Assembly (NCBI GenBank): GCA_019637975.1
Contig: JAHBUR010000002.1
Span: 124,001 to 188,000, forward strand
Source: Bacteroidota bacterium
Lineage (GTDB): Bacteria > Bacteroidota > Ignavibacteria > UBA10030 > UBA6906
Direction of reading: 5' to 3'
DNA length: 64,000 nt
The number at the start of each line of letters is the position of its first letter. The first letter of the stretch is position 1. The translations under genes were made by a program, and so were the position numbers. The notes under the pieces are model-generated. The model did not search any database. It saw nothing but the letters and a program-made list of their open reading frames with translations, and was not told where the DNA came from. Positions 6,619 to 61,674 of the stretch are shown here, one piece after another.

Positions 6619-7160
6619 TATCTCACCCCTTCAGGGTGATGTGGTGGTGCTCGTATTTCCTGTCTTGGGACTTCGTCCCAAGCTATAGTATCTGACCCCC
6701 GCTAAAAGGTAAGGCACGGCGGGCAAGCCGTTGGGGTCGGATAAGGCAGCGGGTTTTGGATGACCAGCCTGTTGTGGGACGGAGTCCCGAGCTACAGCTT
6801 GTAGCGCGATTCTCCTGAATCGCCCCTTGCGCAAGTTCAGCCCCAACGGGGCGGGATATTATAGCCGGGGACGAAGTCCCCGGACAACATCATAAGAGAA
6901 ACATTCCCACAACCCTGAAGGGGTTGGATACCATCAGCGGTATCTCACCCTTTCGGGGTGATGAGATCGTTCTTCTGTTTTACTGTCTTGGGACTTCGTC
7001 CCAAGCTATAGTATCTGACCCCCGCCAAACCGCCAAAAAAGATCGGCGGTCAGGAAGGTAAGGCACGGCGGGCAAGCCGTTGGGGTCGGGCGCGGATGGC
7101 CTCGTGGCTTTGCAATGCCTGATGGGGGACGGAGTCCCGCGCTACAGGTTGAAACGCGGA
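6619..7160. repeat. two tandem units of a composite palindromic repeat
   Basis: Each unit is a string of small perfect palindromes in fixed order: CACCC-TTCA-GGGTG; TTGGGACTTCGTCCCAA followed by GCTATAGTATCTGAC; GGGACGGAGTCCC; GCCCCAACGGGGC; CCGGGGACGAAGTCCCCGG followed by ACAACATCATAAGAG; CAACCCTGAAGGGGTTGG. Unit 1 is 6619-6948 and a shortened unit 2 runs from 6949 to about 7160. The same string recurs at 9539-9960. Stop codons in all frames make coding unlikely. The spacers are conserved as well as the arms, so this is a dispersed repeat family and not chance hairpins. Confidence 0.75.
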
Positions 7161-9538: not shown

Positions 9539-10020
9539 GATCTCACCCTTTCAGGGTGTCGTATTGTTTTAGTGCATGAAGTCTTGGGACTTTGTCCCAA
9601 GCTATAGTATCTGACCTCTGCTGGGTCGGTAAGGCAGCGGGTTCTAGATGACCGGTCTGTTGCGGGACGGAGTCCCGCGTTACGGCGTGTTGTTCGGCGA
9701 TTCAGCCCCAACTGGGCGGGATATTATAGCCGGGGACGAAGTCCCCGGACAACATCATAAGAGAAACATTCCCACAACCCTGAAGGGGTTGGATATCACC
9801 AGCGGTATCTCACCCCTTCAGGGTGATGAGATCGTTCCTGTGTTTTTCTGTCTTGGGACTTCGTCCCAAGCTGTAGTATCTGACTCCTTCGGAGTCAACA
9901 CGGGATGAAGCATTCGCCGGCACTGTCCGACCCCAATGGGGTTAGATGGTAAAGCAGGGGACGAGGTCCTCAGAAAAAGACACACCAACAATCCCGACAA
10001 GCAACCCTGAAAGGATTGGA
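9539..10020. repeat. second copy of the composite palindromic repeat array
   Basis: Same order of palindromes and same spacers as at 6619-7160: TCACCC-TTTCAGGGTG, TTGGGACTTTGTCCCAAGCTATAGTATCTGAC (read across 9584-9615), GGGACGGAGTCCC, CCGGGGACGAAGTCCCCGG at 9730-9748, and CAACCCTGAAGGGGTTGG. A further unit follows from 9808 and decays by about 10020. It fills most of the 9508-10112 gap between the permease and the secreted thioredoxin; no gene is seen there. Confidence 0.75.
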
Positions 10021-29446: not shown

Positions 29447-29476
29447 AAAGGCTAACACGACTGTTAGCCTTTCTGT
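29447..29476 (+). terminator. Rho-independent terminator
   Basis: A perfect 11-bp stem AAAGGCTAACA / TGTTAGCCTTT with loop CGAC, then TCTGT. It starts two bases after the DUF4412-like stop and is the best terminator in the window. Confidence 0.85.
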
Positions 29477-29561
29477 ACCAAAGGAGGGACTCCCCGAACG
29501 CAGAGCGTTCGGGGTAAACGAACCTTTACCCCGACACAGTCGGGGCTCACCCGGTTTAGGC
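29475..29561 (-). pseudogene. tRNA-Leu 3' remnant interrupted by palindromic insert
   Basis: Read on the reverse strand, GCCTAAACCGGGTGAG (29561-29546) and GAGTCCCTCCTTTGGTAC (29492-29475) are identical to the variable arm and the T-arm/acceptor 3' end of the intact tRNA-Leu at 29902-29987. Between them lie 53 bases (29493-29545). The tRNA's own GGTTC is retained in the middle, flanked by hairpins (CCCCGAC/GTCGGGG; GGGGTAAA/TTTACCCC; CCGAACGC/GCGTTCGG). The stop codon of the GIY-YIG gene (29556-29558) lies inside the remnant. Confidence 0.8.
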
Positions 29562-29852
29562 TGTCTTTGATGCGATGACCTGTTCCAAAAACCTATGGCC
29601 GGGACCGCTTTTGAGGAACTGTTCTCTTCGTCTGGCTTCGGAACCTGATGGCACTTGTTCAGAGTAGACAAGTACAAAAGGGCGGCGGTGACGGGTTGAA
29701 AATGTTTTGCCGGAATTGTGCTCATTAATCCGCCGCTCGAAATCAGATGTCATGCCAATGTAGAGCTTATGGTCTTTGAGCGACCGAAGAACGTAAACCG
29801 TATATGAGGTACTTTTCTGCAGGTTGGTGGGGAATACTGATTCTTCATCCAC
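29556..29852 (-). CDS. GIY-YIG nuclease of the URI/UPF0213 type, downstream of tRNA-Leu
   Basis: A 98-residue protein with GTG start at 29852. Single catalytic domain: TSYTVYVLRSLKDHKLYIGMT (GIY-YIG as VYV-10-YIG), catalytic-type Arg in FERRINEHN, then TRHRRPFVLVYSEQVPSGSEARRREQFLKSGPGHRFLEQ with the family's Glu helix. Length is normal for stand-alone URI proteins. The last residues (KTA-stop) are encoded by sequence copied from the tRNA-Leu variable arm. Such nucleases nick DNA; here the placement between an intact tRNA and a tRNA remnant suggests a homing or insertion function. A second homologue stands next to tRNA-Ser at 60816. Confidence 0.85.
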   Translation of the reverse strand: MDEESVFPTNLQKSTSYTVYVLRSLKDHKLYIGMTSDFERRINEHNSGKTFSTRHRRPFVLVYSEQVPSGSEARRREQFLKSGPGHRFLEQVIASKTA

Positions 29853-29888: not shown

Positions 29889-29901
29889 GTCGGAGCGTAC
29901 G

Positions 29902-29987
29902 TACCAAAGGAGGGACTCGAACCCTCACCCGGTTTAGGCCGGACTGGATTTTGAGTCCAGCGCGTCTACCAATTCCGCCACTTTGGC
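29902..29987 (-). tRNA. tRNA-Leu (anticodon CAA)
   Basis: An 86-base class II cloverleaf on the reverse strand: acceptor GCCAAAG/CTTTGGT, anticodon stem CTGGA/TCCAG around loop CTCAAAA (anticodon CAA, reads UUG), long variable arm GTCCGGCCTAAACCGGGT, T arm GAGGG-TTCGAGT-CCCTC. The 3' CCA is not encoded (discriminator A, then CGT). A sigma70-like promoter lies immediately upstream. Confidence 0.93.
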
Positions 29988-59370: not shown

Positions 59371-60444
59371 ATGAAATTCACATCAGACATCTTTTTCATC
59401 TCGCTGATTCTCCTGTCAATGCTCGTCGGATGTCAGGAGAAACCGCCTTTGTTGGAGCCGGTTTCTGATACGGTGTTCGATACCGCGTATGTCGAACTGA
59501 CTCCGGGCTTCAGCGGCTTTACAAGGCCTGAGGATATTCTCATCGGCAACGATCAGTTGCTGTATGTCGCCGACACGTATGGCGAGGAATCTGGACGTAT
59601 CGTGATGATGAACAGGGCGGGACAGATTCTAGGCACGAAAGCGATGCTGCGACCGATGTCGATTGCGCAAGATAGCCGGCTTGATCTTTTAGTGGGGGGA
59701 ATGGTTGTTGCGGCCAACGGCGACAGTGTCGGGGCTGTATTCCGGATTCATCTTGTCGAAGTACAGCATCAACTTGATCAGGCGCGGGTTGATACGATCT
59801 GGAGAGAACTTGCACGCCCGGCACGCCGTTTTCCCGGGATTACCGTGTTCGGCGACAACACGTATCTCGTTGTTCGAGACGGCCCCGATAATTCGAGTTT
59901 CATTGACCCCGATGCCCTCGTTCTGCAGTTCGACAAGAATGACCGTTTCGTTACTCCGGTAGCGTCGTTAACGACCCGCTCGGGAAGCGGCATCACGGAT
60001 ATCTTCCGGCCGACTGCCATTGCGTCGTTTACCGGTTCGAGAGACTTCATCATAGCACAGCAACAGAGTTTTGTTTCGTACGGGGCGCTATGGATGATCT
60101 ATCAGAATACGCCCGAGTTTGAAGGCTGGCTGCCGAGGTTCGATCCTGCCCGTACCGCCGACAGGGGCGTTGATTTCATCAGGCCGAACCGCTACAGCTA
60201 CCCCTCAGCCGTTGCCATCGACAGAACACGACGGGATGTTTTTGTGGCCGATGCTGATCTCGACAGTGTCTTCAAGTTCAACAGTCGCGGTACGTTCAAA
60301 GTGGAATCATTCGGAAGAGCGAAGTCCGGCGGCTCCATGGTGCGGCCTACCGGTCTTGCATACTTTGAAAGGGTCCTGTACGTGCTTGACGGCGACAGGG
60401 GAGAAGTTCTGCGCTTCCGCTTGACGACGGATGTGCAGCGATAA
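59371..60444 (+). CDS. lipoprotein with NHL-like beta-propeller
   Basis: 357 residues, 3 bases after the PorV-like gene. Lipobox MLVGCQEK. The body is NHL/6-bladed propeller-like: FTRPEDILIGNDQLLYVADTYG, GRIVMMNRAGQILG, FRPTAIASF, YSYPSAVAIDRTRRDVFVADADLDSVFKFNSRG, MVRPTGLAYFERVLYVLDGDRGEVLRFRL. Such propellers bind proteins or glycans. Last gene of the six-gene operon; ends 56 bases before the tRNA-Ser region. Confidence 0.8.
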   Translation: MKFTSDIFFISLILLSMLVGCQEKPPLLEPVSDTVFDTAYVELTPGFSGFTRPEDILIGNDQLLYVADTYGEESGRIVMMNRAGQILGTKAMLRPMSIAQDSRLDLLVGGMVVAANGDSVGAVFRIHLVEVQHQLDQARVDTIWRELARPARRFPGITVFGDNTYLVVRDGPDNSSFIDPDALVLQFDKNDRFVTPVASLTTRSGSGITDIFRPTAIASFTGSRDFIIAQQQSFVSYGALWMIYQNTPEFEGWLPRFDPARTADRGVDFIRPNRYSYPSAVAIDRTRRDVFVADADLDSVFKFNSRGTFKVESFGRAKSGGSMVRPTGLAYFERVLYVLDGDRGEVLRFRLTTDVQR

Positions 60445-60499
60445 ACTGCTTGCAAAGAGTCTCTGTTTTTCCTAAATTCATTCGGTTTTTATCATGTTC

Positions 60500-60611
60500 G
60501 GAGAGGTGGGTGAGTGGCCGAAACCAGCGGTTTGTCCGTCCCGTTCGATGGTCAAGCTTAGGAACGGGACGAGATCTCGTCACGCAAGGCGTGACGGACT
60601 AAACCGCCGTA
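60500..60611 (+). pseudogene. broken tRNA-Ser copy with palindrome in the anticodon loop
   Basis: Bases 60500-60534 are identical to the first 35 bases of the intact tRNA-Ser (60667). A 64-base palindromic insert (60535-60598, beginning TCCGTC and ending GACGGA) sits between TTTG and CTAA of the anticodon loop. CTAAACCGCCGTA (60599-60611) then resumes the tRNA. The variable arm is lost; CCAAGAGTTTAATTTT just beyond looks like a decayed T arm. Not functional. Confidence 0.85.
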
Positions 60612-60666
60612 TGGTCCAAGAGTTTAATTTTAAGAAGCGAGATTTTCCAGTTCATTGTTTCATTTC

Positions 60667-60759
60667 GGAGAGGTGGGTGAGTGGCCGAAACCAGCGGTTT
60701 GCTAAACCGCCGTAGGGTGTAAAACTCTACCGAGAGTTCGAATCTCTCCCTCTCCGCCA
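60667..60759 (+). tRNA. tRNA-Ser (anticodon GCT)
   Basis: A 93-base class II cloverleaf with encoded CCA: acceptor GGAGAGG/CCTCTCC, D arm GAGTGGCCGAAACC, anticodon stem CGGTT/AACCG with loop TGCTA region (anticodon GCT, reads AGC/AGU), variable arm GTAGGG-TGTAAAA-CTCTAC, T arm GAGAG-TTCGAAT-CTCTC, discriminator G. A strong terminator follows. Broken copies lie on both sides. Confidence 0.95.
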
Positions 60760-60766
60760 CAATGGG

Positions 60767-60798
60767 AGTCCCAACCCTGTAGAAGGGTTGGGACTTTT
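60767..60798 (+). terminator. Rho-independent terminator of tRNA-Ser
   Basis: AGTCCCAACCCT (60767-60778), loop GTAGA, AGGGTTGGGACT (60784-60795), then TTT. Perfect 12-bp stem. Confidence 0.9.
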
Positions 60799-60815
60799 AA
60801 TTTGGAGGTTGCTTG

Positions 60816-61139
60816 ATGGCGTATCATGTATACATTTTGTTTTCACGTCTGCATGAGCGGACGTATGTGGGTCAGACAGAAGACCTGGAAAACCGTGTCC
60901 GGCACCATAATGCAGGGCGAGTGCGGTCGACGAAAGCCTACCGGCCTTGGGAGGTTCTGCACAGCGAATCCTACTCGACACGCGCTGAAGCAATGCAACG
61001 GGAGCAATGGTACAAGAGTCCGCAAGGGAGAAGGGCATTGAAAGAGCTTCTCTCTCGGGCGATTGCCTCCAGCGGTTTGTCCGTCCCGTTCGATGGTCAA
61101 GCTCAGGAACGGGACGGGATCTCGTCACGCAAGGCGTGA
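60816..61139 (+). CDS. GIY-YIG nuclease of the URI type, downstream of tRNA-Ser
   Basis: 107 residues from ATG 60816 (TTTGGAGG nine bases upstream). Catalytic core: AYHVYILFSRLHERTYVGQTEDLENRVRHHNAGRV, then STKAYRPWEVLHSESYSTRAEAMQREQWYKSPQGRRALKELL. It is homologous to the protein at 29556. The C-terminal ~24 residues are atypical: from codons AGC GGT TTG on, the frame reads a tRNA-Ser fragment and then the 64-base palindrome, stopping at the palindrome's TGA. Without the palindrome the frame would end at a TAA in the tRNA variable arm. Probably a nuclease of a selfish element targeting tRNA-Ser. Confidence 0.85.
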   Translation: MAYHVYILFSRLHERTYVGQTEDLENRVRHHNAGRVRSTKAYRPWEVLHSESYSTRAEAMQREQWYKSPQGRRALKELLSRAIASSGLSVPFDGQAQERDGISSRKA

Positions 61140-61308
61140 CGGACTAAACCGCCGTAGGGTGTAAAATCCGTCCCGAAGTGATGTACCAGTGTATCGGGGC
61201 GGGATCTGCCGGGTGGATCTTTGTTAGGGACTCTACCGAGAGTTCGCCGTCCCGTACACGGGACGAGCCTCGATCCCAATCGGGATCGGGAATCTCTCCC
61301 TCTCCGCA
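61069..61308 (+). pseudogene. tRNA-Ser 3' remnant interrupted by three palindromic inserts
   Basis: The tRNA-Ser sequence from CCAGCGGTTTG to CCTCTCCGC is present in order but split. Insert 1, 61080-61143 (64 nt), lies in the anticodon loop at the same position as in the 60500 copy and is 62/64 identical to it. Insert 2, 61167-61230 (64 nt), lies at the edge of the variable-arm loop, after TGTAAAA. Insert 3, 61247-61290 (44 nt), lies in the T loop, TTCG|AAT. All tRNA segments between inserts match the intact gene. The first 71 bases overlap the end of the nuclease gene. Confidence 0.88.
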
Positions 61309-61674
61309 AGACTACGCCCCGCCAAAAAACGGCGGGGCTTCGTCCTGCTGGCAGCCTGTGTTCCCGTCAAAAGGCGAATGCGGGCGTAGTCAGCATAACC
61401 GACGAAGCCGCTTCTCAGGCGCAGTCGATCTCTCCCTCTATAGCAAGGCAACGCCCTGCGAGAAAACGGCAATGCCTTGTCTTTCGGGCATACGGCAGGC
61501 ATTGAGCTTGCCTTTTCCTTTTCCCTTCCTCCCATAATTCCAAGCGACGGCGGTCACATTTTTTGGCAGGGGCTTTGTGTTTCAAGGGTTTTTTTCTCAT
61601 TTTTGTCTCGGGGTTTACACACTTCGCTCTCCGTCAACATTGGTCGCAGAACACATTTGAACACATTCAGTGGT
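61309..61674. other. gene-free stretch with palindromes and a second tRNA-Ser tail fragment
   Basis: GCCCCGCC/GGCGGGGC (61316-61338) is a perfect hairpin. ATCTCTCCCTCT at 61428-61439 repeats the tRNA-Ser T-stem/acceptor tail seen at 61292-61303, and both are followed a few bases later by GCAAG. AGGCAACGCC/AATGCCT-type inverted arms follow (about 61446-61505). No credible protein gene; possible short frames are compositionally repeat-derived. Confidence 0.5.

Follow-up and report, generated by a model that had tools for sequence, protein, structure and literature searches.

Stand-alone GIY-YIG nuclease genes within split tRNA genes: a candidate family of minimal tRNA-targeting mobile elements in Ignavibacteria and other bacteria

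Free-standing GIY-YIG homing endonucleases are known from phages, where SegB of T4 and T6 cuts within tRNA genes and drives tandem amplification (PMC13096335, PMC2988022). We regard SegB as the nearest precedent for the locus reported here, a stand-alone GIY-YIG gene adjoining tRNA-Ser(GCT) in a 64,000-nucleotide stretch of DNA (the window, to which all coordinates refer unless a locus is named) of a Bacteroidota bacterium of the class Ignavibacteria (assembly GCA_019637975.1, contig JAHBUR010000002.1). In both systems a GIY-YIG enzyme adjoins tRNA genes without an intron, and cleavage, recombination and the joint tandem amplification of tRNA and nuclease, as described for SegB, would have their counterpart here. 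However, SegB belongs to phage tRNA arrays, whereas the present genes reside in bacterial chromosomes, encode a bare URI domain of ~90 aa and are accompanied by a host tRNA gene that has been split and replaced, by hairpin-bearing remnants and by nuclease lineages matched to tRNA species. I-TevI and the group I introns of tRNA genes likewise combine GIY-YIG catalysis with tRNA targets, but the window locus has no intron and its tRNA is restored by a copy instead of by splicing. A parallel of another kind is offered by REP sequences with their RAYT transposases, in which small palindromes surround one nuclease-type gene and some copies lack the gene (PMC3116915, PMC8266576). RAYTs are HuH tyrosine enzymes, whereas our gene matched PF01541 as its sole family, with no HuH tyrosine transposase among its matches, and the palindromes lie inside the loops of tRNA copies.

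Prophages and islands that integrate at tRNA genes resemble the locus in that an intact copy is restored upon insertion; here, in contrast, the units measure 0.3-0.6 kb, carry no integrase and involve a duplication of up to most of the tRNA plus flank. Rickettsia palindromic elements are palindromes inserted into genes, including RNA genes; we know of no nuclease linked to them and, unlike them, the palindromes described below are tied to tRNA copies. SLX1, a nuclease cutting branched DNA, and the UPF0213 proteins are to our knowledge neither mobile nor linked to tRNA genes, and they provide the closest solved sequences and folds to the window nuclease (1zg2, 1ywl, 7wme, 6seh). A literature search that left aside preprints and most subscription papers retrieved no published account of a bacterial GIY-YIG gene associated with tRNA remnants, REPs or palindromes.

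The tRNA-Ser(GCT) locus

Every feature of the locus lies on the forward strand. An intact tRNA-Ser(GCT) at 60667-60756 (ARAGORN; Rfam RF00005, 55.7 bits; 3' end at 60756 or 60759) is followed by a terminator-like hairpin (60767-60795) and by a URI-type GIY-YIG gene of 107 aa, running from an ATG at 60816 to a stop at 61139 (PF01541, E=1.3e-15; 57.9 bits against a curated cut-off of 22.6). A 3' remnant at 61069-61307 retains nt 25-91 of the tRNA in four blocks that keep the tRNA order, with three inserts of ~64, 63 and 43 nt between them: the palindromic insert A' in the anticodon loop (61080-61143), insert B in the variable loop (61167-61229) and insert C, a double hairpin, in the T loop (61247-61289). 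The last codons of the nuclease ORF are tRNA-derived remnant sequence. A preliminary description, made from the letters of the window, had recognised the tRNA, terminator and nuclease gene in series on one strand, the remnant reaching from the anticodon stem to the tRNA end and the entry of the nuclease coding end into it; all of this stands, with the qualification that the remnant is interrupted. It made no mention of an upstream 5' piece, the palindromes, the nuclease-free remnants, the tRNA-Leu(CAA) case and the decayed relics, all of which are described below.

The 5' piece consists of tRNA nt 1-35 (60500-60534; 100% identity with the intact tRNA over 38 nt) and carries in its anticodon loop the palindrome-rich insert A (60535-60598), the same 64-nt insert as in the 3' remnant, remnant and insert together spanning 60500-60615. 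Two copies of a 92-nt direct repeat (60524-60615 and 61069-61160, the latter forming the first 92 nt of the 3' remnant) are 97% identical, lie 545 nt apart and border a cassette of 453 bp (60616-61068) comprising a leader, the intact tRNA-Ser, the terminator and the nuclease gene. The nuclease is the single protein that the cassette encodes, in keeping with the element of ~0.5 kb without integrase proposed at the outset, and no integrase was found either among the neighbouring window ORFs scanned (PorV-like, NHL-repeat, TonB-receptor and SLBB/polysaccharide-export). An Rfam scan detected no intron family at the locus or in the window, the nuclease gene lying outside any intron or intein, and a phage or plasmid origin was set aside, since searches of 50,697 phage records and of plasmid records yielded no match to the nuclease. 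Insert A was ruled out as a dispersed repeat, being present at the tRNA-Ser locus only. The arrangement is not attributable to chance, because direct repeats with E<=1e-4 flank no more than 4 of 300 random window positions and all five stand-alone GIY-YIG genes of the genome share the arrangement.

Comparison with a congener (G002, locus L032) bears on the history of the gene. The left flanks (60380-60479, the end of the NHL-repeat gene and the region upstream of the original tRNA-Ser) are 90% identical until shortly before the 5' remnant, and the sequence immediately behind the intact tRNA-Ser of the congener is 89% identical to the flank behind the 3' remnant of the window (61302-61365, the original terminator and right flank); the sequence behind the window's own intact tRNA-Ser, the terminator-like hairpin included, has no counterpart in L032. 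Therefore, the remnants mark the borders of the old gene, the intact tRNA being part of the inserted cassette. Judged from these flanks, the 3' remnant once formed the end of the original tRNA-Ser and was displaced, in agreement with the initial proposal of an insertion that restores an intact tRNA and displaces its 3' part. Further downstream, 61396-61430 resembles the 3' end of a different nuclease gene located at the same tRNA-Ser in G002 (35 bp, 94% identity, E=9e-13) and is followed by a second decayed tRNA-Ser 3' end with terminator (61428-61470; 81% over 43 nt, E=1e-8). On the basis of these two relics the same tRNA-Ser gene was occupied at least twice, by different nucleases; the two congeners carry different nuclease lineages at this tRNA-Ser, with the relic of the other in the source genome.

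A reading of the locus as the remnant of an integrase-based island, for which the tRNA served as attachment site before the integrase was lost, would account for the restored tRNA, as integrase-borne islands likewise restore tRNA 3' ends. However, we deem it extremely improbable in view of the lack of an integrase in the cassette and among the scanned neighbours, of the recurrence of the compact tRNA-nuclease-remnant unit in dozens of genomes and of the position of the nuclease gene, which is found on either side of the intact tRNA depending on the locus.

Recurrence, partner tRNAs and empty sites

A second, independent instance within the window lies on the reverse strand: an intact tRNA-Leu(CAA) (29901-29987; ARAGORN, Rfam), a GIY-YIG nuclease (29556-29825 from domain to stop; PF01541, E=1.2e-15) with its stop inside the remnant, and a tRNA-Leu 3' remnant (29475-29560) with palindromes in its variable and T loops, the stems of which are unchanged in the congener. 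The genome contains seven PF01541 genes, two long and five stand-alone, and each of the latter adjoins both a tRNA and a broken duplicate of it, the partners being Ser-GCT, Leu-CAA, Ser-GGA, Pro-TGG and Cys-GCA; the random expectation for a position within 400 bp of a tRNA, according to our own estimate from 43 tRNAs in 4.25 Mb, is ~1%. At the level of sequence the nuclease is evidently under purifying selection, with dN/dS ~0.14 against the congener in two ortholog pairs (the Leu and the Ser-GGA nucleases).

The class sample comprised 161 nuclease genes from searches of the class and of the congeners, taken as best-scoring and coming in many cases from draft genomes; therefore, the fractions given here for class and phylum are not unbiased. 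A tRNA was located within 400 bp of 76 of these genes, in all 76 cases on the same strand, and 12 more adjoin remnants without a tRNA. Set against the rough ~1% expectation, these counts bear out the enrichment of URI genes at tRNAs that the preliminary description had anticipated in relatives, and its potential objection, remnants that never come with the nuclease, fails, since remnants with a nuclease are common among them. Direct repeats (E<=1e-4) flank 61 of the 76 tRNA cases and 59 of the other 85 genes. In a phylum-wide sample 13 of 52 genes lay at tRNAs, again all on the strand of the tRNA, and tRNA plus remnant were observed in 7 of 10 hits from other genomes (Flavobacteriales, Niabella, Sphingobacteriales, Omnitrophota, Taylorbacteria, Desulfobulbaceae and Desulfobacterales). 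Two further observations concern gene number and context: one ~3.0 Mb genome of the phylum sample (G141) carries 25 GIY-YIG domain genes, far above its relatives, and at L057 (1801-2047, reverse strand), in the surroundings of a tRNA-Asn, a group I intron (RF00028) directly adjoins a stand-alone GIY-YIG gene.

The catalytic Tyr, Gly, Arg and Glu of the GIY-YIG superfamily are kept in the family of the window nuclease, Y17, G19, R27, H31 and E63 being invariant among 30 sequences and nearly so among the 161. Its structure model (pLDDT 88, with the first 80 residues above 90 and the remnant-derived C-terminal residues of low confidence) shows no extra DNA-binding domain. On the nuclease tree the partner tRNA changes 25 times, compared with 65 in shuffles; when each combination of tRNA and host family was reduced to a single row, the amino acid of the partner tRNA changed 23 times versus 41.4 in shuffled data (0/1000 as low), and host family does not cluster. 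Therefore, nuclease lineages follow the tRNA gene and not the host. Such tracking of a tRNA across host families is the expectation for target-specific homing, with the presumed target read from the position of the genes. A separate related clade of ~60 sequences is without a tRNA, and its inspected members lie in palindromic-repeat arrays. The arrays around sister-clade genes at L038, L045, L058, L071, L081 and L083 consist of palindromic intergenic repeats of the types ATTCCCGC..GCGGGAAT and CCTGAGCGAAGTCGAAGG, and genes in such arrays have direct repeats on their flanks and in some cases stand in tandem triplets.

Empty sites, for which a search had been suggested from the outset, were sought in three congeners, and clean ones with synteny on both sides were recovered for Pro, Cys, Asp and Gly. 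The occupied Pro allele is longer by 658 bp, the left flank being colinear through tRNA nt 24 and the right flank from nt 59; that of Asp is longer by 344 bp, with the tRNA from nt 60 plus 43 bp duplicated; that of Gly by 346 bp, with a right junction near nt 57; and that of Cys by 289 bp, on the 5' side. These alignments reveal element-free alleles in the congeners. Loci in other states were also found: nuclease-free remnants accompany the Leu, Ser-GGA and Ser-GCT genes of G001, and tRNA-Val is accompanied by a decayed remnant in G000 and by a nuclease at the same place in G002. Taken as allele states, these loci fit gain, decay, loss and re-invasion of elements.

The intact tRNA is identical in occupied and empty alleles at Pro, Cys, Asn and Gly, which rules out self-immunity through recoding of the tRNA at these four loci. 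Therefore, self-immunity there must have another source, and protection of the occupied allele by its flank or by structure is possible. As expected of homing endonucleases, the genes are intron-free, have element-free alleles and display a target specificity that extends over whole lineages, the target being deduced from position; protection of the occupied allele through disruption or recoding of the target was, however, not found, and for this reason we do not class the element as a plain free-standing homing endonuclease. The remnants might alternatively be ordinary relics of tandem tRNA duplications and unrelated repeat insertions, with the nuclease as a passive passenger of repeat-rich intergenic DNA, and nuclease-free tandem tRNA fragments of this sort do exist (L106, L182-L184). 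Nonetheless, a constant strand in 76 of 76 cases, a tree that tracks the tRNA, clean insertions and a low dN/dS are unexpected of a passenger, and we hold this alternative to be highly improbable.

Palindromes in the tRNA remnants

At least one disrupted arm was recorded in 62 of 69 scored remnants, and in 41 of the 69 a palindrome with a stem of at least 6 sits at the indel, versus 6-15% of random 30-60 nt stretches. The whole arm is often exchanged for another hairpin, as in the anticodon arms of tRNA-Lys (L055) and tRNA-Thr (L106). In the latter locus (1-260) tandem tRNA-Thr copies with TCCCGATTTTAATCGGGA as anticodon arm precede an intact tRNA-Thr, with no nuclease within 1.5 kb. Many remnant hairpins start with TCCCG and end with CGGGA, and TCCCGA..TCGGGA hairpins are in excess genome-wide (32 vs 4). 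Hairpins of this type also occur within RNase P RNA and a TPP riboswitch of one genome (L087, 1360-1781, and L095, 1431-1540). A palindrome-rich block (CTTGGGACTTCGTCCCAAG, CCGGGGACGAAGTCCCCGG) occurs in the window as two near-copies, at 6664-7005 and 9583-9870; one of them overlaps a match to Acido-Lenti-1 of Rfam (6839-6883), possibly a mobile palindrome in its own right.

A family of T-loop inserts, GTTC|TCCCGAAGGGA with entry at GTTC|GA, is represented by 26 copies in 12 genomes (0 in the control). Its members (L246-L271) form a double hairpin in partial tRNA copies of many isotypes; most lie beside the tRNA that they match, and for most the inspected locus contains no nuclease, as is the case for the hairpin-bearing remnants at L182-L184 and L106. 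These T-loop inserts are possibly non-autonomous partners of the nuclease elements. The cleavage motif of SegB is RAWTSGAAC (PMC13096335). By our own comparison it reads GTTCSAWTY on the other strand, the T-loop sequence at which the T-loop inserts enter, a coincidence that is suggestive but falls short of proof. The position of the palindrome was also considered as a nuclease-specific cut site, and this was ruled out, as loci with the same disrupted arm are not grouped on the nuclease tree (changes in tree versus shuffled: T 15 vs 14.1, D 12 vs 14.1, AC 12 vs 15.4); Asp loci are fairly uniform in this respect.

The palindromes could instead come first, as mobile units that enter the loops of hairpin-forming DNA and are mobilised by an SLX1-like nuclease in a manner comparable to RAYT and REP, nuclease-bearing loci then being autonomous and nuclease-free remnants non-autonomous. 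The frequency of palindromes at indels and of disrupted arms, the mostly nuclease-free T-loop inserts, the sister clade in palindrome arrays, the TCCCGA hairpins in RNase P RNA and the TPP riboswitch, and a nuclease flanked by two copies of one hairpin (L102) all argue for such an order of events, as does the greater richness in PF01541 genes of the 12 genomes with the T-loop insert (p=2e-4). However, that last link is not seen inside the three main host families (p=0.28), the correlation between palindrome number and nuclease number is modest (rho 0.34-0.40) and confounded by kinship, and TCCCG..CGGGA hairpins persist in genomes with one PF01541 gene (G082, G010), so that we judge a primary role of hairpin mobility rather unlikely. 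The notion that the nuclease is required for palindromes was set aside on the same modest correlation and its absence, for the T-loop insert, within the main families. Conceivable, though less likely than not, is a two-part mobility system based on the recognition of hairpin-forming DNA by an SLX1-like GIY-YIG nuclease, which would swap or insert hairpins in tRNA-gene arms, REP arrays and structured RNA genes and so give rise to autonomous nuclease-bearing and to nuclease-free tRNA-hairpin copies.

The remnants could also have a function: with their arms swapped, they would form tRNA-like structures, as RNA or DNA, that serve the nuclease as binding site, in autoregulation or as decoy, in a stable two-part system. 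Consistent with this, the Leu and Ser(GGA) remnants are nearly unchanged between congeners except in the hairpin loops whereas spacer and nuclease diverged, the Leu remnant of G002 retains a form absent from the intact tRNA of the same genome, and the 3' remnant of the window folds more stably than shuffles (z=-4.45). But the flanks at the Leu and Ser(GGA) loci are well conserved too, remnants decay elsewhere (61428-61470, L193), and neither arm nor side is conserved along the nuclease tree; we therefore consider a function of the remnants improbable.

Proposed mode of mobility and implications

Our best reading is a family of minimal tRNA-targeting mobile elements working like free-standing homing endonucleases, whose cleavage and transposition we infer. 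It is probable that each is a tRNA-specialised mobile element of ~0.3-0.6 kb, composed of an SLX1/UPF0213-like GIY-YIG gene and a tRNA-gene piece, with one tRNA per nuclease lineage. The allele comparisons place the element within the tRNA gene, with the original split or partly duplicated around it and an intact tRNA present. The nuclease would cut the tRNA gene, or its hairpin form, in the element-free allele, and recombinational repair via the shared tRNA sequence would then copy the element in or, as with SegB, duplicate it in tandem, the replacement tRNA that is carried along rendering the insertion harmless. The spare tRNA pieces would subsequently gather REP-like hairpins in their loops, and these hairpins may abolish nuclease sites as well. 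Counting against the mobile-element reading are the nuclease-free remnants, the unrecoded intact tRNA, the mismatch between disrupted arm and tree and the ~60-sequence clade away from tRNAs.

Together the loci give the impression of a class of tiny mobile elements, directed at tRNA genes, that has so far been overlooked. If this is correct, much of the phylum's large stock of stand-alone GIY-YIG genes would consist of very small selfish elements, for which essential tRNA genes are landing sites paid for by a replacement copy, and the principle of SegB would extend from phages to bacterial chromosomes. Tandem tRNA fragments and the hairpins within RNA genes would likewise have an origin, and a collection of compact nucleases would become available in which every member apparently has one tRNA gene as its partner. 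Two old questions would thereby become testable: by what means REP-like palindromes travel through genomes, and how a homing nuclease avoids cutting its own target once this has been restored.
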